42,684 bases of DNA, from positions 1 to 42,684 of the IMG/VR virus record IMGVR_UViG_3300008012_000050, one strand, 5' to 3'. Below the pieces are notes generated by a model. The model was given only the letters and a program-made list of their open reading frames with translations, searched no databases and was not told the origin of the DNA. This document shows positions 16,646 to 37,242 of the stretch, piece by piece (position 1 is the first letter of the stretch; the number at the start of each line of letters is the position of its first letter). Origin of the DNA: a virus. A program made the position numbers and the translations under genes.

Positions 16646-17272
16646 ATGGAAAGTATTGTTATGTTTAGTGGTGGAGTAGAATCTGTCGCATTGTTGAATT
16701 GGTTAAAGGAAAGAAACGAGAATGTAGTTGCATTGCATAGTATTTTTCCCAATCCCCAATCACAAGCAAAAAAGTTAAGACATAATGTAGTAGAGATATG
16801 TGATATGTTAAAGACCCCCCTTATCATACATGAACATCCAGTCTATTCACCTAATCCATATTTTGGTGAATCAGAGGATTACTTTCATTCATCTAAACAT
16901 TGGATACTTGCATGTTGCACTGCTGCACTTAAGTATCCACAAGTTAAAAAATTCTACTGGGGAGTTAACAGTGGAATACTAGAATATGGTGATGGAGGTG
17001 ATTACCACTTCCTACCAAGGGCATGGGAATTTCAAATTGCATTTGAGTTCTTTGGAAGAATAATGAATGGACTTGACCATGACCAAAAAATGTATCCACC
17101 ATTGAGTGGATGGACTAAGAAAAAGATGTGGGAAAGTATTCCCGACAATATTAAACCACTTGTGGTAAGTTGTAGTTATCCAACAGATGATTTACAACCA
17201 TGTAATGAGTGTTATAAGTGTAAAGAATACCAATCCATGTCTCATAAACACTTATACGTAGAGGGACTATAA
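16646..17272 (+). CDS. QueC-like PP-loop protein (7-cyano-7-deazaguanine synthase family)
   Basis: 208 residues. The N-terminal MFSGGVESVALLNWL is a PP-loop (usually SGGxDS; here Glu replaces Asp). The C-terminal CNECYKCKEYQ is a Cys-x2-Cys-x2-Cys zinc site, as in QueC. QueC makes preQ0 from CDG for queuosine tRNA or for 7-deazaguanine phage DNA. No other preQ0 gene (queD, queE, folE) or transglycosylase is in this window, so the pathway role is unproven; a related N-type ATP-pyrophosphatase is the alternative. It starts directly after the nrdB stop and shares TAATG with the next small gene. Confidence 0.7.
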   Translation: MESIVMFSGGVESVALLNWLKERNENVVALHSIFPNPQSQAKKLRHNVVEICDMLKTPLIIHEHPVYSPNPYFGESEDYFHSSKHWILACCTAALKYPQVKKFYWGVNSGILEYGDGGDYHFLPRAWEFQIAFEFFGRIMNGLDHDQKMYPPLSGWTKKKMWESIPDNIKPLVVSCSYPTDDLQPCNECYKCKEYQSMSHKHLYVEGL

Positions 17273-18069: not shown

Positions 18070-18378
18070 ATGAATATATTATGCAATAATGTGAAATTGA
18101 GAGACAAAGCAATAGACTTTGCAAATCAACTAGGAATATCAAATTCCAAAGTCACACTGAATATATTCAGACTACCACATCCCGATAAACGACAAGGATT
18201 CATAGATTACCCACATAATGCAAGGGTAAACATGTATATGGAGATGTTTGTTAAGTACGATGAGGAGAGATACATAACACTTGCACATGAGATGGTGCAT
18301 GTGAGACAGGTTATAAACAACGAATCCATAGATGAGAATGAAGCAGAAACACTTGCATATAGAATGAATAATGAGTAA
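18070..18378 (+). CDS. Small zincin-like metalloprotease
   Basis: 102 residues. LAHEMVHVRQ is an HExxH zinc motif, followed by a downstream Glu-rich helix (NEAETLAYRM) that may supply the third ligand. This is the SprT/minigluzincin arrangement in a single small domain. No signal peptide, so cytoplasmic. Target unknown. ATG 18070 lies seven bases after the previous stop; the gene overlaps the methyltransferase start by eight bases. Confidence 0.65.
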   Translation: MNILCNNVKLRDKAIDFANQLGISNSKVTLNIFRLPHPDKRQGFIDYPHNARVNMYMEMFVKYDEERYITLAHEMVHVRQVINNESIDENEAETLAYRMNNE

Positions 18379-19195
18379 AACCGAAACTATAGGAAATACA
18401 ACCTTACATTGTGGTGATTCCACTACAATAATTAATGAACTAAAAGACCAATCTGTTGACATTGTTGTTAGTAGTCCACCTTATAATATAGGTAGAAATT
18501 ATGGGTTATATCAAGATAAAAAAATAGATTACCTTGACTGGCAAACATCTTTTTGGAATATGGTATTCACTAAGATGAAAGATGATGGCCATGTGTTCTT
18601 AAACATACAACCTTCAAGAAAGAATCCTCTTTGGTGTTATCAACTTGTATCACAATTAGATTGGAAGGTGCAAAACACTATTATTTGGAATAAAAGAATA
18701 GAAATAGATGGGTATGTCAGAGGACAGGGAACTACATCACAAAGTAAAAAATATGTATGTAATGGATGGGAATATGTGTTTCATCTAACAAAAAAAGGTG
18801 AGACTGAAATATCACAAAAAGACAGTGGTGTTGGTTATCATCCACAATGGGCAGAAGAAAATGCCAAAAGATTTGGCAAAACATGGAGACCCACTGTAAA
18901 CTCTTGGCACATACCTTATGAAACAGTTGGTCATGGGTCAATCAGTAAAGACTCAATGAAAGGTAAACACCCTGCGATATTTCCCAAAAAACTAGTTGAA
19001 AAATGCATTAAAGTAAGTGGATTAAAAAGTGGTGTATTGTTAGAACCATACTTAGGAACTGGAACAACTTGTATTGTTGCAGAAGAACTGGGATTTGAAT
19101 CAATTGGTATTGATATAGACTCTAGTTATGTTGAATTTGCAGGTAATAAACTTAAAGAGACACTTGACAATGCTACCACAAAAAAGGTATACTAA
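18371..19195 (+). CDS. DNA methyltransferase, beta class (N4-cytosine or N6-adenine)
   Basis: 274 residues. Catalytic motif IV is SSPPYNIG at ~34-41. The SAM-binding motif comes after it, near the C-terminus: LLEPYLGTGTTCIVAEELGF, then IGIDID. This order is that of beta-class enzymes such as CcrM. SPPY rather than DPPY is commoner in N4-cytosine enzymes, but does not settle the base. The region between (~90-190) would be the target-recognition part. No restriction endonuclease is next to it, so it is an orphan enzyme, likely protecting phage DNA or changing expression. An early-type promoter for the next gene overlaps its end. Confidence 0.88.
   Translation: MSKTETIGNTTLHCGDSTTIINELKDQSVDIVVSSPPYNIGRNYGLYQDKKIDYLDWQTSFWNMVFTKMKDDGHVFLNIQPSRKNPLWCYQLVSQLDWKVQNTIIWNKRIEIDGYVRGQGTTSQSKKYVCNGWEYVFHLTKKGETEISQKDSGVGYHPQWAEENAKRFGKTWRPTVNSWHIPYETVGHGSISKDSMKGKHPAIFPKKLVEKCIKVSGLKSGVLLEPYLGTGTTCIVAEELGFESIGIDIDSSYVEFAGNKLKETLDNATTKKVY
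19164..19193 (+). promoter_or_regulatory. Early-type promoter TTGACA-18-TATACT
   Basis: CTTGACAATGCTACC with 18 bases between TTGACA and TATACT; the downstream bases AACAGT also occur at 19593. It drives the gene at 19223, leaving a leader of ~24 bases with a ribosome site. Confidence 0.75.
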
Positions 19196-24308: not shown

Positions 24309-24987
24309 AAAGATACAACACTTTCCCGATTGGGAATCACAACCAATAAATGGTGAAACATTTTCACCATTCGGGCCAACTGTATATCTCGGAAAAGTAC
24401 ATGACGAATTTATAGATGAGTTGAATACACATATCACAAACCTAAATGCATCGGATGATGCAACAGATGTAAAAGGTCAACTTGCAGGTAGAGTTGAGAA
24501 ACAACTCTTTCTACAGGACTTGATATCTGATAAGTTAGAAGGACATATAAGACAACATATCGTAAACTTCACTAACCAACAGAACATGGGAATGGAAGAA
24601 CAGCATATAGTATCTGAAGCAGTTTGGTGCAATTGTGCATCAGCAAGAGATTTCAATCCAAGACACCAACATACAGGTAATTTCTCTTATGTTATCTACA
24701 CCAAAAACACTGTAGACCCTACAGATGTTGTCAACAACCCGTATGATAATGCACATGGTGACGACCCTAGTATTGCAGGTAATATAGAGCTACACTATGG
24801 TGAATCAATGTTTATGAATCAATCAAGATTTATGCATACACCAGTAGAAGGAGACATCCTAGTCTTCCCTGCATGGTTACAACATTCAGTATATCCATTC
24901 TATTGTGATGGAGAAAGATGGAGTGTTGCAGGAAACTATAGGTTTGCCACTTGGGAGGAACTTAACCCACCACAAGAAACAGACTAG
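24289..24987 (+). CDS. 2-oxoglutarate/Fe(II) oxygenase, TIGR02466-like
   Basis: 232 residues from ATG 24289, preceded by GAGAAAGAG; a TTG at 24250 in the same frame is unlikely. Core: VWCNCASARDFNPRHQHTGN, FSYVIYTKN, GDILVFPAWLQHSVYPFY with the distal His, and WSVAGNYRF. RHQH carries the metal His. It resembles the protein encoded at 21792 in layout, so the two may be old duplicates. The stop overlaps the GTG that could begin the next gene. Confidence 0.78.
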   Translation: MKPLSSKKIQHFPDWESQPINGETFSPFGPTVYLGKVHDEFIDELNTHITNLNASDDATDVKGQLAGRVEKQLFLQDLISDKLEGHIRQHIVNFTNQQNMGMEEQHIVSEAVWCNCASARDFNPRHQHTGNFSYVIYTKNTVDPTDVVNNPYDNAHGDDPSIAGNIELHYGESMFMNQSRFMHTPVEGDILVFPAWLQHSVYPFYCDGERWSVAGNYRFATWEELNPPQETD

Positions 24988-25004
24988 TGTACGGGATTAA
25001 GAAC

Positions 25005-25685
25005 ATGAAGACCGATGAATGGGTCGGTCTTTACATGCATATACCTAAGACTGGTGGAAGTCGACTGAGAAATTCCATATACGAACAATTGGATACAGGT
25101 GATTACGACTGTTTCTGTACTCAAATGTCTAAGGTATTACCTATCAATCAGAGAACCCTCGACTCACTCAATGTCGATGGACTAGCACATCTAACCTTAG
25201 ACCAAGCATTTCAAGTATTCCCAACACTGGATGATTGGATAACAGAGAACAACATAGATGTCTTCACCATTACTCGTAATCCCTATGAGAGATTTGTATC
25301 GTGCCTTAGGTTTCTACCTACTATGATGCAACATGGAATAGACAAGGGAGATAAGATACCAAGATATGGTGGAAGTATGACACCCAGTGAATTTCATGCA
25401 ATTGTAACTACGAGTTTGTTTCGTCAGCAAAGTGATTGGATAAACAGAGATGGTACACCTTACACTAGAGTGTTACATTTAGATGAAATTACGGGTAAGT
25501 CAAATGTTCACATCACAGAAAACCTATACTGTGATTTCAGTAAAACGGATGGGTCAACGGAACAAGTTGCAGAACATATTCATAAGAGTTCCTATGTCAT
25601 TCCTAAATTCACACTGGATGAAGAGACAAAGAAATTCGTGCAATGGTTATGGGCTGACGACATCAAAAACCCTCTAGTCAGATAG
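25005..25685 (+). CDS. Sulfotransferase-like protein
   Basis: 226 residues from ATG 25005; GTG 24987 in frame is the other possible start. MHIPKTGGSRLRNSIY is the 5'-phosphosulfate loop of PAPS-dependent sulfotransferases, and FTITRNPYERFVSCL is the 3'-phosphate motif (Arg and Ser present). It would move sulfate from PAPS to a sugar or protein hydroxyl. Next to a run of hydroxylases, it could act on groups those enzymes make; that is inference. PAPS must come from the host. Confidence 0.78.
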   Translation: MKTDEWVGLYMHIPKTGGSRLRNSIYEQLDTGDYDCFCTQMSKVLPINQRTLDSLNVDGLAHLTLDQAFQVFPTLDDWITENNIDVFTITRNPYERFVSCLRFLPTMMQHGIDKGDKIPRYGGSMTPSEFHAIVTTSLFRQQSDWINRDGTPYTRVLHLDEITGKSNVHITENLYCDFSKTDGSTEQVAEHIHKSSYVIPKFTLDEETKKFVQWLWADDIKNPLVR

Positions 25686-29997: not shown

Positions 29998-30008
29998 CCA
30001 AGAAATAT

Positions 30009-30016
30009 GATATAAT
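30009..30016 (+). promoter_or_regulatory. Extended -10 promoter of the ATPase-nuclease gene
   Basis: TGATATAAT-type extended -10 (TG at 30008-30009, TATAAT 30011-30016), no good -35. The transcript leader would be ~25 bases and contains TAGGAGA before ATG 30049. Confidence 0.55.
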
Positions 30017-30048
30017 ATAATTGTACGATAAAATAGGAGACTAATACA

Positions 30049-31737
30049 ATGCCAAAAGAATTAAAATTAATAAACACCACTCTGATACCTAAGAGTGAAT
30101 TTCTGTTCTATAAGAACTTTCGAAACTCTTTTTCTACTCCTCCATTCGCTGTCTTAGATGAGTGGTACGATAACGTAGAGAAAGCAAACCAAGTATTCTT
30201 TGATTTAACCCCAGCCACTATAACCGTCAGTGATGATGGACTGGGTATGGAATACGATACTTTTATTAATGACTTTTTGAGAATGAAAGACACTCAAGGT
30301 GTATCCCCTAACTCCACTGGTATCTTTGGTGTGGGTGGTTCTAAGGGTGTTCCCTATCTCATTGGTCGTCCATTGTCCATTGCATTCACCAGTAGAGACG
30401 GTAAGTCCTATTACAAAGGTGTATGGGAATATGATGGCCCTGTAAGTGAGGGTTTGTTCCCACTTGCAAAGATAAACTCCGCTAGTGTCAAGGTGTATAC
30501 TATGACGGAGTCTGAATATCGATTGGAGTTTACTCGTGAGTGTGGGTATATTCCGTCCTTTGTGTTCATGTGTGAGAGGTTAGGTAAGTATGCAGGGGAT
30601 TATGATGGTACTAAATCATTAATATTGAGTGCAATTAAGAGAAATTTGTCTGTTAAGATGATGGAAGGTAAGTCTTTGGCTGATATTACCGTCACCGACA
30701 CCAATAGTAAGGGCAAACGCACTTCTGAAGACTTAATTCCTGCATATCACCCCTTTGTCAAAGTCATTGATGGGAAAACCATTATTGCACCTAATACTTT
30801 GGAACAACTTCCGTTTGAGAAGAAGAAATTTATTATTGGAGACAGTGCAGTTCTAAAACTTAAGTGTTATAAGAAATCTAATATCACCACCGAAGGAGAT
30901 AGAATAAACGAGAATATTATTAATAATGCACGAAGTGGTGAGGTTGCATTGATAGGTGCTACGAATGCAGGTCGAGAAGCTGCACCTAACAAACCTATTG
31001 TGATGATATGCAATAAAAATGGTAGAATATTGCACCGTTATATTATAGACGACACCATTCGTAGTTCGAATCCCGAACTCATGAACTTTATGGTGTTTGT
31101 TTTTTATATGGAGACGTGGGACGAAGCAGTTCCCTTTAATTTAATTAAACCAGCTCCTATGACGGGTGATGTGTATACTGATTTTAATCAGAAGATACTT
31201 GATTGGATGCAGAAACCTGCTCAAAAAGAAAGATTCACTCACGGTGAAACTAAAGATGAAGACAGAGAAACCGAAACCATTAGAGATTCTATTGTTTACG
31301 GTACCGAGTCTGTCGACAATATTACAAGAGGTGTGATTGCAGACTTGATGGATTGTCGACCAAGTCACTTTACAGACCCTAACATCGTAAGGTGTCAAGC
31401 ATCTAAAGGTGAAGTCCGTGATATCGATTTAAAAATTGAAGGGGAGACTCCTCTTATCATAGAAAATAAAATAGGTAGGATTGGAGTCGGTCAATTAGAC
31501 CAAGCCATCGGTATGTCCTACATGTTAGACTATACCCACCACATGGTTTTATTGTGTGATGAGATTTCTGCACATTTAAGAGACAATGCATGTCAAGTGA
31601 TGAAAAAAAGAATGCAGACAGACACTTTAGGTAGTGCAGTCTCTTTTACTATTATGACGAAGACTGCACTACAGACAGGAACAAAAGGTGATACCGACTT
31701 TATTGAGTTGTACCGACATGAGGATTATATTGTATGA
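30049..31737 (+). CDS. GHKL-type ATPase fused to a PD-(D/E)XK-like nuclease domain
   Basis: 562 residues. The N-terminal third has the GHKL (Hsp90/MutL/MORC/histidine-kinase) ATP site: N-box LDEWYDNVEKAN (Glu38, Asn42), G1 DDGLGM (Asp63, Gly66) and G2 GIFGVGGSKG (91-100). A middle region (~150-400) has no family I know. The C-terminus contains DIDLKIEGETPLIIENK, giving Asp460 and Glu472-x-Lys474, followed by GQLDQA (Gln482), the motif order of PD-(D/E)XK nucleases. There is no histidine-kinase phospho-acceptor domain. Such an architecture recalls ATP-gated DNA-cleaving defence or MutL-like proteins. ATGA couples it to a membrane gene. Domain calls are from motifs only. Confidence 0.8.
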   Translation: MPKELKLINTTLIPKSEFLFYKNFRNSFSTPPFAVLDEWYDNVEKANQVFFDLTPATITVSDDGLGMEYDTFINDFLRMKDTQGVSPNSTGIFGVGGSKGVPYLIGRPLSIAFTSRDGKSYYKGVWEYDGPVSEGLFPLAKINSASVKVYTMTESEYRLEFTRECGYIPSFVFMCERLGKYAGDYDGTKSLILSAIKRNLSVKMMEGKSLADITVTDTNSKGKRTSEDLIPAYHPFVKVIDGKTIIAPNTLEQLPFEKKKFIIGDSAVLKLKCYKKSNITTEGDRINENIINNARSGEVALIGATNAGREAAPNKPIVMICNKNGRILHRYIIDDTIRSSNPELMNFMVFVFYMETWDEAVPFNLIKPAPMTGDVYTDFNQKILDWMQKPAQKERFTHGETKDEDRETETIRDSIVYGTESVDNITRGVIADLMDCRPSHFTDPNIVRCQASKGEVRDIDLKIEGETPLIIENKIGRIGVGQLDQAIGMSYMLDYTHHMVLLCDEISAHLRDNACQVMKKRMQTDTLGSAVSFTIMTKTALQTGTKGDTDFIELYRHEDYIV

Positions 31738-31739
31738 GT
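31720..31739. repeat. 20-bp exact direct repeat, copy 1
   Basis: GAGGATTATATTGTATGAGT spans the end of the ATPase-nuclease gene (last residues EDYIV) and the next start. Identical to 32388-32407. Confidence 0.85.
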
Positions 31740-31952
31740 CCTAAGTCAAGAGCAATCCATAAAGAAACTGCAACCACCGTTGGTACAGGATTATTAATTA
31801 ATTACCCACTGAATCTATTTGGATTGTATATCTGTATGGATGTATTAGATATGAGTAGTTCAGTAGCAATAGGAACCTCTATAACGGTCGCTATGACCTT
31901 CGTTGCATATACTAGGGTCTATACCATAAGAAGGTGGTTTAATGACAGATAA
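31734..31952 (+). CDS. Small membrane protein, two spans, ending YTIRRWF
   Basis: 72 residues, ATGA-coupled to the ATPase-nuclease. Two hydrophobic segments (~17-37 and ~44-62) flank MDVLDMSSS; the end YTRVYTIRRWFNDR matches the style of small phage membrane proteins with a terminal RRxF (DUF7220-like, from memory). It could anchor or regulate the upstream enzyme, or be an independent phage protein. It overlaps the next gene by 11 bases. Confidence 0.65.
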   Translation: MSPKSRAIHKETATTVGTGLLINYPLNLFGLYICMDVLDMSSSVAIGTSITVAMTFVAYTRVYTIRRWFNDR

Positions 31953-32211
31953 AGACGAGAACCGATATGAGATAACCAGTGAGACTCCTCTGTATACCAA
32001 AGACTGGTATATCAAATGGGTTGCATCTGTTTTTGTCTTGTCCTCTATGTCCCTAAGAGGTGTAGAGGGATACCAAGACTGGGACTTAGGTCTTTCCTTT
32101 GTAGGTGTAGCACTTTGGTTAATCGTGTCTCTCATGTGGAATGACAGAGCTCTCATCCTCTTAAACGGTGTGGGTCTATTATTTTTATTACGGACTTTAA
32201 TTACAGGATAA
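31942..32211 (+). CDS. Small membrane protein, three spans
   Basis: 89 residues. After a charged start (MTDKDENRYEITSETPLYTK) come three hydrophobic segments: VASVFVLSSMSLRG, LSFVGVALWLIVSLMW and ALILLNGVGLLFLLRTL. No family recognised. The start overlaps the upstream stop. Confidence 0.65.
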   Translation: MTDKDENRYEITSETPLYTKDWYIKWVASVFVLSSMSLRGVEGYQDWDLGLSFVGVALWLIVSLMWNDRALILLNGVGLLFLLRTLITG

Positions 32212-32214
32212 ATA
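32208..32214 (+). promoter_or_regulatory. Late-promoter-like box ATAAATA
   Basis: ATAAATA overlaps the preceding stop and ends five bases before ATG 32220. Confidence 0.5.
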
Positions 32215-32219
32215 GAAGT

Positions 32220-32405
32220 ATGTTAGAATTAATTTTATTACCTTGGACACTATTTAAATACCTTTTCTCGTTAGGTCTATGGAGTGTTTTCTTTATTACA
32301 CTACATTACCTATGGAAGAAGCACGACTGCAGTGAGTGGACTCTCAATGCACTGAGAAGCAATAAAAAGAAGGTTGAAGAAAAACCCGAGGATTATATTG
32401 TATGA
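32220..32405 (+). CDS. Small membrane protein ending EDYIV
   Basis: 61 residues. A hydrophobic half (LILLPWTLFKYLFSLGLWSV plus FFITLHYLW) is followed by a basic tail (RSNKKKVEEKPEDYIV). The last five residues match those of the 562-residue protein at 30049, because the DNA there is a 20-base exact repeat. The stop overlaps the next start as ATGA. Confidence 0.65.
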   Translation: MLELILLPWTLFKYLFSLGLWSVFFITLHYLWKKHDCSEWTLNALRSNKKKVEEKPEDYIV

Positions 32406-32407
32406 GT
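32388..32407. repeat. 20-bp exact direct repeat, copy 2
   Basis: Second copy of GAGGATTATATTGTATGAGT, again at an ATGA gene junction. The copies bracket 31740-32387, three membrane genes. Confidence 0.85.
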
Positions 32408-32584
32408 ACTGAATTAATATTAATACACGTTGGATTTATATTTGCACTGGTCGTATCTGTATGGTACAGTGGGTTCAAAGCAGGTCGTAAATCCATGGTG
32501 GAACAATTTATGGATGATGAGTTATTTACTCCACGGGAATTATTGACCCATTACAAACAAATAAATAAAGATATAAACAAATAA
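32402..32584 (+). CDS. Small single-span membrane protein
   Basis: 60 residues. One N-terminal span (LILIHVGFIFALVVSVWYSG) followed by a soluble tail with FKAGRKSMVEQFMDDELFTP. N-out/C-in orientation is likely from the basic KAGRK after the span. Coupled to the upstream gene by ATGA. Unknown function. Confidence 0.6.
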   Translation: MSTELILIHVGFIFALVVSVWYSGFKAGRKSMVEQFMDDELFTPRELLTHYKQINKDINK

Positions 32585-32599
32585 TAATAGGAATATATT

Positions 32600-33805
32600 A
32601 TGAGAATAATTGGAGTGAATATTTCACACGACACTTCCGTGTCAGAATTAGTAGATGGTAAAATACTCAATCTCTATGAAGAAGAAAGATGTGTCAGAGA
32701 AAAGTACTATGACCCCAACAAAGCAATACTAGAAAAATATCGTGGTCTCCTTACAATGGAGAGATATAACTTAGGGAGTGATGAATTAATCGACTCGGTT
32801 GCATTTGCATCCTATGACCGTAGAGAGATTGCCTATCATTTATCTGACGACACAGATAATATGTGGAAGAGTGAATGGGTAGAAAGATTTCTCAAAGACA
32901 TCAAAGCAACAACTCTTACCATCGATAGACTTAACGAACTTGCAGAGAAGTATGAGGAGTTCAGTTATAATATTCCTAAGACGAATTTAGATGATGATAT
33001 CATTAATCTTTTAATGAACTCACATTATTCAAACAATCAACCCTATCACTTTGATACGAACCTTCATCATGAATATCATGCTTGGAGTGCAGGATACTTT
33101 GCATACGAACAAGACCAAGTAGAAGATGCAATGTGTGTAGTGTGGGATGGTGGTGGAGCTCAGTCATATTTTGATACACATCCTGGCTACCAAGAAATCG
33201 AGTCCATCTATAAAATAGAAAAAGGTGTCCCTACTCTTAAACATCAAGTCATGTCAAACTATAGAGTCATTGACGACCTTAACTATGCACTACCCAATCA
33301 ACTAAGTGATTGTTGTCAGACAGAGGTAGAGACCACTGAAGACATCGATGGTGCAGAGGTAGTCTTTACATCAAGACCGTCCAGTGGAATGATGTTCTCG
33401 AATATGAGTCAGGCACTAGGTACAGACGACCATGGTCGAGCAGCAGGTAAAGTTATGGGGATGGCATCTTATGGTAGAGGTGAGAGTAAAGAATTTAATA
33501 AGTTTACTATTTCACAAAAACTTGAACTTGAAACATTTGAAAATTCATGTAAAACAATTCAGAGGGCATTAGACTTAGACCCTACCAATAAAAATATTAT
33601 TCTGAGTGGTGGGTATAGTTTAAACTGTACTAACAACTACAAGTACTTACAGAGATTTCCCGATGTTAATTTTTATGTAGAACCCTGTTGTCATGACGGT
33701 GGTACTGCAATAGGTGTAGCACTAAGTGCAATGTATATAATACAACAGGACGAAGACTATGTGAGTCCTTCATCTAATTATGTTAAAAGGAGTGTGTGGA
33801 CATGA
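32600..33805 (+). CDS. Carbamoyltransferase (NodU/CmcH/TobZ family), N-terminal Kae1-like domain
   Basis: 401 residues covering the first domain: GVNISHDTSVSELVDG (ATP site start), NLHHEYHAWSAGYFA (metal His residues), MCVVWDGGGAQSYFD, MSQALGTDDHGRAAGKVMGM and NIILSGGYSLNCTNN. Family members are normally one ~550-600-residue chain; here the chain stops and the second domain is encoded by the next gene in another frame. Together they would move a carbamoyl group from carbamoyl phosphate to a hydroxyl or amine of a sugar or other small molecule. AATAGGAATA lies before the ATG. Confidence 0.88.
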   Translation: MRIIGVNISHDTSVSELVDGKILNLYEEERCVREKYYDPNKAILEKYRGLLTMERYNLGSDELIDSVAFASYDRREIAYHLSDDTDNMWKSEWVERFLKDIKATTLTIDRLNELAEKYEEFSYNIPKTNLDDDIINLLMNSHYSNNQPYHFDTNLHHEYHAWSAGYFAYEQDQVEDAMCVVWDGGGAQSYFDTHPGYQEIESIYKIEKGVPTLKHQVMSNYRVIDDLNYALPNQLSDCCQTEVETTEDIDGAEVVFTSRPSSGMMFSNMSQALGTDDHGRAAGKVMGMASYGRGESKEFNKFTISQKLELETFENSCKTIQRALDLDPTNKNIILSGGYSLNCTNNYKYLQRFPDVNFYVEPCCHDGGTAIGVALSAMYIIQQDEDYVSPSSNYVKRSVWT

Positions 33806-34398
33806 AATTAACCGAAATCATTAGAGACATGGATGAGTGTGTCAGACTATTAATCGAAGAGAAACAGATAGTTGCAATCTTCCAAGGTAAAGGAGAATGG
33901 GGCCCACGTGCATTAGGTAATCGTTCCATACTCTTTGACCCAACTAATCTTCGTGCAAAACAAATTGTTAACGAGGTAAAGAAAAGAGAAGAGTATAGAC
34001 CTTTTGCAGGTAGTGTTATGTTAGAACATGCACATGAGTATTTTGAAATGCTACAGTTAAAGGAATCCCCATGGATGTCTTTTGCAATACAAGGTAAACC
34101 TCTTGCATATGAAAAGATTCCAAGTATCGTTCATGCAGATGGAACATGTAGAATCCAAACGGTGACTGAAGAACAAAACAAGAACTATTATAATCTAATT
34201 AAAAAGATGTATGAGACTAACGGTGTTCCTGTTGTCTTTAACACATCATTCAATTTAGGTGGTGAGGCATTAGTCGAAACTATCTATGATGCAATCGACA
34301 CTTGCAATCGTTCAGACATAAACTTTCTTTATGTCCCCGAAGACCAAGACATTCATATTCCATATGATGCAATTAAATTGAAAGAAATAACTAAATAG
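33802..34398 (+). CDS. Carbamoyltransferase C-terminal domain, separate gene
   Basis: 198 residues from ATG 33802 (ATGA overlap with the upstream stop; AGGAG nine bases before). It begins where the family's second domain begins: VAIFQGKGEWGPRALGNRSI is the YrdC-like carbamoyl-site signature. KKREEYRPFAGSVM, VPVVFNTSFNLGGE and the final DAIKLKEI are all conserved. With its own ribosome site it looks like a stable split protein, not decay. It should assemble with the 401-residue subunit. Confidence 0.88.
   Translation: MKLTEIIRDMDECVRLLIEEKQIVAIFQGKGEWGPRALGNRSILFDPTNLRAKQIVNEVKKREEYRPFAGSVMLEHAHEYFEMLQLKESPWMSFAIQGKPLAYEKIPSIVHADGTCRIQTVTEEQNKNYYNLIKKMYETNGVPVVFNTSFNLGGEALVETIYDAIDTCNRSDINFLYVPEDQDIHIPYDAIKLKEITK
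34391..34397 (+). promoter_or_regulatory. Late-promoter-like box CTAAATA
   Basis: CTAAATA overlaps the preceding stop and ends five bases before ATG 34403. Confidence 0.5.
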
Positions 34399-36528: not shown

Positions 36529-37242
36529 ATGACACAAACAAATAAAATATCTATACGAGACAGAATGCAGAATAAGGCTTTATCTGCATTTGGAGAAATT
36601 GAATATGAAATTGATGCATGGTTAGACATGCCTTATGGTTCAGACTTCAACATGTTGAAACATTTAAAACGACTTGACTATTCACCAAAGGTTATTGCCT
36701 TTATGAAAGGACAGGTAGACGACATCATCTTTGAGGTTAGAAACGAAGAAGGTTGTGAACAGTTAGAAGAAGCATATGACTTCCTATCTAAAACCAACAA
36801 GAAAAAGTTTTTAAAGTTCTTAGAAAGTATCGACAAAGGAATTGAGGAATACATTGCCACTACAGTGGTAGTTCGTAAACCCAAAATCAAAACACCCAAA
36901 CAGTTAGTGAAGACACTTCCGTTTTTAAAACAACACGGTAAGTACCGTTCCATTGACCCCGAAGAAATTATTCGTGCAAAGACACTGTTCACTTATAACA
37001 TTGCTTCACAGAAGTTTACTAAGTTTGAAACTTATGGTGGTCTATCAGTTAAGGGGTCTCGTATTATAGATTATGACGTATGTGAAGAAAAGACCTTGAC
37101 AGATATCAAACTACTTGATAGAATATACAAAGGTGGTAATATAATTGCAAGAGGATTTCTAGATGAGATTCCTCGTTCCAAGTTAAAGGATGGAAATGAT
37201 TTGCTTACCAAAAATACATTATTAATAAAAGTGATTAGATGA
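36529..37242 (+). CDS. Conserved phage protein upstream of RNase H, unknown function
   Basis: 237 residues. Helical first half (FGEIEYEIDAWLDMPYGSDF, LSKTNKKKFLKFLESIDKGI), beta-rich second half (FTKFETYGGLSVKGSRIIDY). No enzyme motif recognised. ATG 36529 is at the expected transcript start with no ribosome site before it. The stop overlaps the RNase H start. The early promoter and coupling suggest a replication-linked role. Confidence 0.7.
   Translation: MTQTNKISIRDRMQNKALSAFGEIEYEIDAWLDMPYGSDFNMLKHLKRLDYSPKVIAFMKGQVDDIIFEVRNEEGCEQLEEAYDFLSKTNKKKFLKFLESIDKGIEEYIATTVVVRKPKIKTPKQLVKTLPFLKQHGKYRSIDPEEIIRAKTLFTYNIASQKFTKFETYGGLSVKGSRIIDYDVCEEKTLTDIKLLDRIYKGGNIIARGFLDEIPRSKLKDGNDLLTKNTLLIKVIR

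Follow-up and report, generated by a model that had tools for sequence, protein, structure and literature searches.

What would a marine T4-like phage use a single protein chain for, in which a GHKL ATPase appears to be joined to a PD-(D/E)XK nuclease? The question is raised by virus record IMGVR_UViG_3300008012_000050, whose 42,684 bases, probably a fragment, constitute the window analyzed here. The gene, an open reading frame (ORF) of 562 codons with an ATG start, occupies positions 30049..31737 on the + strand, which also carries the features placed below between 30008 and 32584. An earlier note on this DNA had read from it the N-box residues E38 and N42, the motifs DDGLGM (residues 62-67) and GIFGVGGSKG (residues 91-100), and the C-terminal residues D460, E472-N-K474 and Q482; direct reading of the sequence located every one of them. 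One homolog was found, in IMGVR_UViG_3300046170_000199 (locus L001), which is full-length and 66% identical. The explanation that we favor, at about an even chance, is that this gene specifies a phage nuclease gated by ATP, swappable and with a role in conflict.

Its motifs and profile matches identify the N-terminal part as a GHKL ATPase. Its core (residues 36-130, positions 30154..30438) carries the N-box, the G1 box DDGLGM, which follows the DxGxG pattern, and the G2 box GIFGVGGSKG, in the order expected of the superfamily, and profile similarity accompanies the motifs. The hhalign comparison of the GHKL part gave 86% for Hsp90 and 84% for paraMORC3, against at most about 4% for the remaining 73 decoy families, which were drawn from the fetched loci. 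The profile of residues 1-266, built from the two known sequences, scored 49.9 against Hsp90 and 48.7 against paraMORC3, and no more than 24.6 against the 73 other families; none of 200 shuffles equaled the match. The same profile retrieved GHKL proteins among 1,457 ORFs, a set that prior searches had already enriched in them. The match to HATPase_c_3 (E=0.006) was weaker than Pfam's own cut-off. The proposal of a GHKL ATPase is thus borne out by the profile comparison with Hsp90 and paraMORC3, and the resemblance to paraMORC3 is no better than that to Hsp90.

The C-terminal part (residues 401-562, positions 31249..31734) is a probable PD-(D/E)XK nuclease domain, a reading that comes from the alignment of its putative catalytic residues. 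The earlier note had relied on an Asp/Glu/Lys triad together with Q482. Residues D460, E472 and K474 are present and are retained in the 66%-identical homolog, but the pattern D-x(8,14)-E-x-K was found in 65% of shuffles of the protein, and therefore the triad alone is at chance level, and it is the profile match that carries weight. The glutamine Q482 is not conserved, being Asp in L001; the conserved one is Q485. When residues 401-562 were aligned by hhalign with PDDEXK_4 (PF14281) proteins from genomes, D460 paired with the catalytic Asp, E472 and K474 took the places of the catalytic E-x-K, and a Gln came soon afterwards, so that the catalytic residues stand in register. The score of 31.6 was higher than that of any of 400 column shuffles, the best of which reached 25.8, and than that of any of the 75 decoy families, which did not pass 23.1.

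The distribution and the rate of change of the gene bear on its role. Scans of viral contigs with the whole protein, the N-box, the G2 box or the C-terminus gave no homolog beyond the one in L001, and tblastn against phages and plasmids gave no match at E<=10. Searches of genome contigs, and of 399 genomes from one bacterial phylum, turned up other GHKL proteins but no relative over the full length. Of 45 related records that were searched in their entirety, many being fragments, L001 had the homolog and the 44 others did not. Between the two phages, the nonsynonymous substitution rate (dN) of the GHKL protein was 0.266 and its ratio to the synonymous rate (dN/dS) 0.61, whereas the neighboring genes were 86-99% identical, with dN of 0.004-0.108 and mostly dN/dS <=0.22; the HesB neighbor also had a high dN/dS (0.72, from a partial match). 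At the amino-acid level the GHKL protein thus evolves faster than its neighbors, by a factor ranging from several-fold to tens. The change is unevenly distributed: the GHKL core (residues 36-130) is 87% identical and constrained (dN/dS 0.24), and constraint is much weaker in residues 131-260 (dN/dS 0.90) and 401-562 (dN/dS 0.73). Fast change around a constrained ATPase core fits the pattern of a gene in conflict.

The same position in related phages is occupied by other genes. In five loci (L047, L052, L054, L055 and L056), a 494-amino-acid GmrSD_N-HNH (DUF262-HNH) protein lies between a 78-amino-acid gene and DUF6552, within the same flanking genes; these loci are closely alike, and therefore may count as one event. 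In L055 the protein (L055:2780-4264, followed by MazG-like and methyltransferase genes) matched GmrSD_N at E=6e-4, below Pfam's cut-off, HNH_4 at E=1e-4, just above it, and NsnA in PADLOC at E=9e-9. The equivalent slot holds a 391-amino-acid protein in L044 and no large gene in L058. GmrSD-type and DUF262-HNH proteins are nucleoside triphosphate (NTP)-dependent nucleases, as the window protein would be, but their NTPase and nuclease folds are unrelated to those of the GHKL-nuclease. A more specific version of our reading, held only tentatively, is that the position upstream of DUF6552 and the carbamoyltransferase is a weapon slot in which unrelated NTP-gated nucleases are swapped, each a single-gene restriction of rivals, and that the GHKL-PDDEXK_4 combination represents an independent origin of the paraMORC3 design. 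Since the gene is accessory, fast-changing and located in a slot that holds a different nuclease in relatives, a job in conflict is the most likely one.

In the proposed mechanism, ATP binding by the GHKL head, with E38 as general base and N42 serving Mg-ATP, would drive dimer closure, which in turn would license the C-terminal domain, through D460, E472 and K474, to cut DNA. The targets would be DNA of rival phages, plasmids or the host, and the phage's own DNA would be spared, perhaps via its own modification. The window contains an N6/N4 DNA methylase gene (18371-19195; PF01555, E=3e-39), next to which no gene for a restriction enzyme was noticed. It also contains a QueC-like gene (16646-17272; PHROG 1550) with a possible link to 7-deazaguanine metabolism or DNA modification. 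Both could mark the phage's own DNA.

Several observations weigh against this reading. The PDDEXK_4 match, short and below Pfam's detection, spans just 31 columns, and the C-terminus was compared against three nuclease sets; therefore the evidence for a nuclease is good, not conclusive. Searches of the protein against Pfam, PADLOC, NCBIfam and PDB sequences gave no nuclease match, nor did PHROGs, and a weak GHKL match was all that these database searches returned. AlphaFold2 models, made from a two-row alignment, were of low confidence because there are too few homologs, with a predicted local distance difference test (pLDDT) value of 41.5 for the full length and 51.9 for residues 401-562, and Foldseek of these models gave no significant structural match. 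The nuclease suggested by the earlier note thus gains support from the catalytic register, the shuffles and the decoys, but the models are too low in confidence to show its fold. Moreover, relaxed constraint could mimic diversifying change, because just two sequences are known. Equally, the function of the gene could lie in the breakdown of host DNA or in phage DNA metabolism. In that case the protein would be used in the manner of MutL, a topoisomerase or EndoMS, for repair, recombination or host-DNA breakdown instead of conflict; GHKL-nuclease pairs do serve MutL and topoisomerases, and RusA-like resolvase and RNase H-type exonuclease genes lie nearby. Genes of core metabolism, however, are unlike one that evolves fast and occurs in a single related record out of 45 searched whole, many of which are fragments, and we regard this alternative as distinctly unlikely.

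The earlier note knew of no described system with this layout, and here it was mistaken. ParaMORC3 combines GHKL, an S5 domain and a C-terminal nuclease of the restriction-endonuclease fold with an E-D-ExK motif (Iyer et al. 2008, PMC2292703). VcSduA, a Shedu type I-D protein of Vibrio cholerae described in 2025, is a GHKL-PD-(D/E)XK protein that protects against phages; this activity is lost with either substitution, E27A or K557A, and growth data suggest direct restriction in which the host survives (PMC12137116). Together with a ParaMORC3-annotated gene in the P2-like coliphage PhiR44_1, these proteins mean that the layout was already described, tested and known in phage. The window protein shares with VcSduA a single chain with an N-terminal GHKL ATPase and, probably, a C-terminal PD-(D/E)XK nuclease, and VcSduA needs both sites for defence. 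However, the VcSduA nuclease is of the DUF4263/SduA_C type, to which the window protein has no link, and VcSduA resides in a bacterial genome, whereas the window protein belongs to a T4-like phage and is known here from its sequence. With paraMORC3 it shares GHKL and, probably, a C-terminal nuclease as well as occurrence in phage, but the aligned paraMORC3 members are about 650-680 amino acids long and mostly adjoin a cytosine methylase, against 562 amino acids for the window protein.

Is it then a true paraMORC3/Shedu type I-D protein (GHKL, S5 and DUF4263) that the phage acquired? The domain order is the same, the GHKL part matches paraMORC3 and the coliphage gene bears that annotation. Comparison with a set of SduA_C proteins and with seven paraMORC3 proteins argues otherwise. 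The nuclease part was at background both against SduA_C (79 of 200 shuffles as good) and against the paraMORC3 C-terminus (123 of 200), and hmmscan found SduA_C (DUF4263, PF14082) neither in the protein nor elsewhere in the whole record. The middle region (about residues 262-399, positions 30832..31245) may be an S5-like transducer, a resemblance noticed by eye: residues 315-328 (KPIVMICNKNGRIL) loosely recall the MORC S5 motif GhXhhpXXRhl, and the hhalign comparison of the region with paraMORC3 was at background (59 of 100 shuffles as good). A cytosine methylase adjoins five of six fetched plasmid paraMORC3-like genes and the coliphage ParaMORC3 gene; none lies beside the GHKL gene, which is a weak criterion, as some paraMORC3 genes stand alone (PMC2292703). 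Membership of Shedu or paraMORC3 was rejected on these grounds, and acquisition of such a protein is improbable. On paper the window protein probably works like VcSduA and paraMORC3, but its probable nuclease lies closer to the PDDEXK_4 type, and the chain is probably an independent assembly. With VcSduA as a close working precedent, it is reasonable to infer an ATP-gated nuclease that acts on host or rival DNA.

T4 rIIA offers another comparison, with a GHKL head, a variable tail and occurrence in T4-like phages. Since rIIA orthologs are described as GHKL ATPases with a highly variable C-terminus (PMC7824862), an rIIA alignment of eleven phages was built for comparison. The N-terminal 300 residues of the window protein scored 28.7 against it, with a shuffle maximum of 26.9 and a hidden Markov model (HMM) E of about 1, and pairwise comparison gave nothing; membership was rejected. 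A divergent rIIA-like protein of host takeover or counter-defence, with a GHKL head, a variable C-terminus and no working nuclease, would agree with the conservation of the GHKL core and the variability elsewhere. The weak rIIA match (11%), however, is far below those to Hsp90 and paraMORC3, the annotated neighbors included no identified rIIB, and a nuclease motif is matched in register by the C-terminus; we know of no nuclease motif in rIIA. An rIIA-like role is unlikely, and rIIA serves as a functional analogy, with no family assignment.

The downstream genes raise the question of a membrane link. The earlier note had joined the GHKL gene, through an ATGA overlap, to a run of tiny membrane proteins, and had suggested tethering. 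Four small ORFs do follow, up to position 32584: a 72-amino-acid DUF7220 protein (31734..31952; PF23858, E=5e-7), an 89-amino-acid DUF6552 membrane protein (31942..32211; PF20189, E=9e-19), both of them neighbors that are probably outside the system, and proteins of 61 and 60 amino acids (32220..32584), ATGA-coupled to one another. The 89- and 60-amino-acid products are clearly hydrophobic, but the 72- and 61-amino-acid ones only weakly so. Homologs of the 60-amino-acid protein sit ahead of the carbamoyltransferase gene in several relatives. A joint system of the GHKL-nuclease, DUF7220, DUF6552 and the two small membrane proteins is favored by the overlap at 31734 and by the shared orientation in the window, but the link is unstable: in L001 an 86-amino-acid ORF (L001:4668-4928) separates the GHKL gene from DUF7220. 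DUF7220 occurs in other phages elsewhere or without a GHKL gene, and on the opposite strand in several relatives. Of the 80 fetched viral loci with DUF6552, L001 alone has a GHKL homolog within the locus DNA examined. Between the two phages, identity is 88-97% for the small proteins and 66% for the GHKL protein. The 79 other DUF6552 loci and the intervening ORF indicate that the membrane genes are neighbors, not demonstrated partners, and the idea of tethering was therefore abandoned; a membrane-tethered system is very improbable.

At the junction, a 20-bp direct repeat, GAGGATTATATTGTATGAGT (31720..31739), has an exact second copy at 32388-32407 (none expected), and an 18-bp version occurs twice in L001 as well. 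It spans the last codons (EDYIV), the ATGA overlap and the next start of two unrelated genes, and may be a trace of the way in which the GHKL gene entered this cluster. Upstream, an AGGAG resembling a Shine-Dalgarno sequence (30035..30039, 9 nt ahead of the ATG) and an extended -10 promoter-like site, TGATATAAT (30008..30016), were read directly; the former is conserved in L001 and the latter is identical 5' of the homolog, and no -35 was seen. The site is perfect and retained, but promoter-like sites are not in excess in the region (12 against 14.5 in shuffles).

The remaining gene content of the window is of the marine T4-like phage type: ribonucleotide reductase, primase, an RNase H-type exonuclease and several 2OG-Fe(II) oxygenases are present, along with a carbamoyltransferase that is matched at the DNA level by cyanophages, pelagiphages and other marine viruses. 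The carbamoyltransferase takes the form of two overlapping ORFs (32600-33805 and 33796-34398; 401 and 200 amino acids); L001 has a pair of the same lengths, and relatives, L055 among them, have similar ones. A 237-amino-acid protein at 36529-37242 has a weak PADLOC match to PD-T4-10_B (E=0.0045), probably by chance. A sulfotransferase-like gene (24987-25685; PHROG 3347) lies in a part of the window where 2OG-Fe(II) oxygenase-like genes are numerous.

Summarizing, what is new is the rarity of this phage GHKL-nuclease, found in one other virus, its fast evolution, and a slot that holds GmrSD-like DUF262-HNH proteins in relatives. The GHKL-gated nuclease design was recently shown to act as a bacterial phage defence, and its occurrence in a T4-like phage, apparently with another type of nuclease, suggests that an ATP-gated cutter has been put to use convergently. 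The protein is a small, testable candidate for phage-versus-phage or phage-versus-host conflict, and the slot that it shares with DUF262-HNH proteins offers a route to more such genes.
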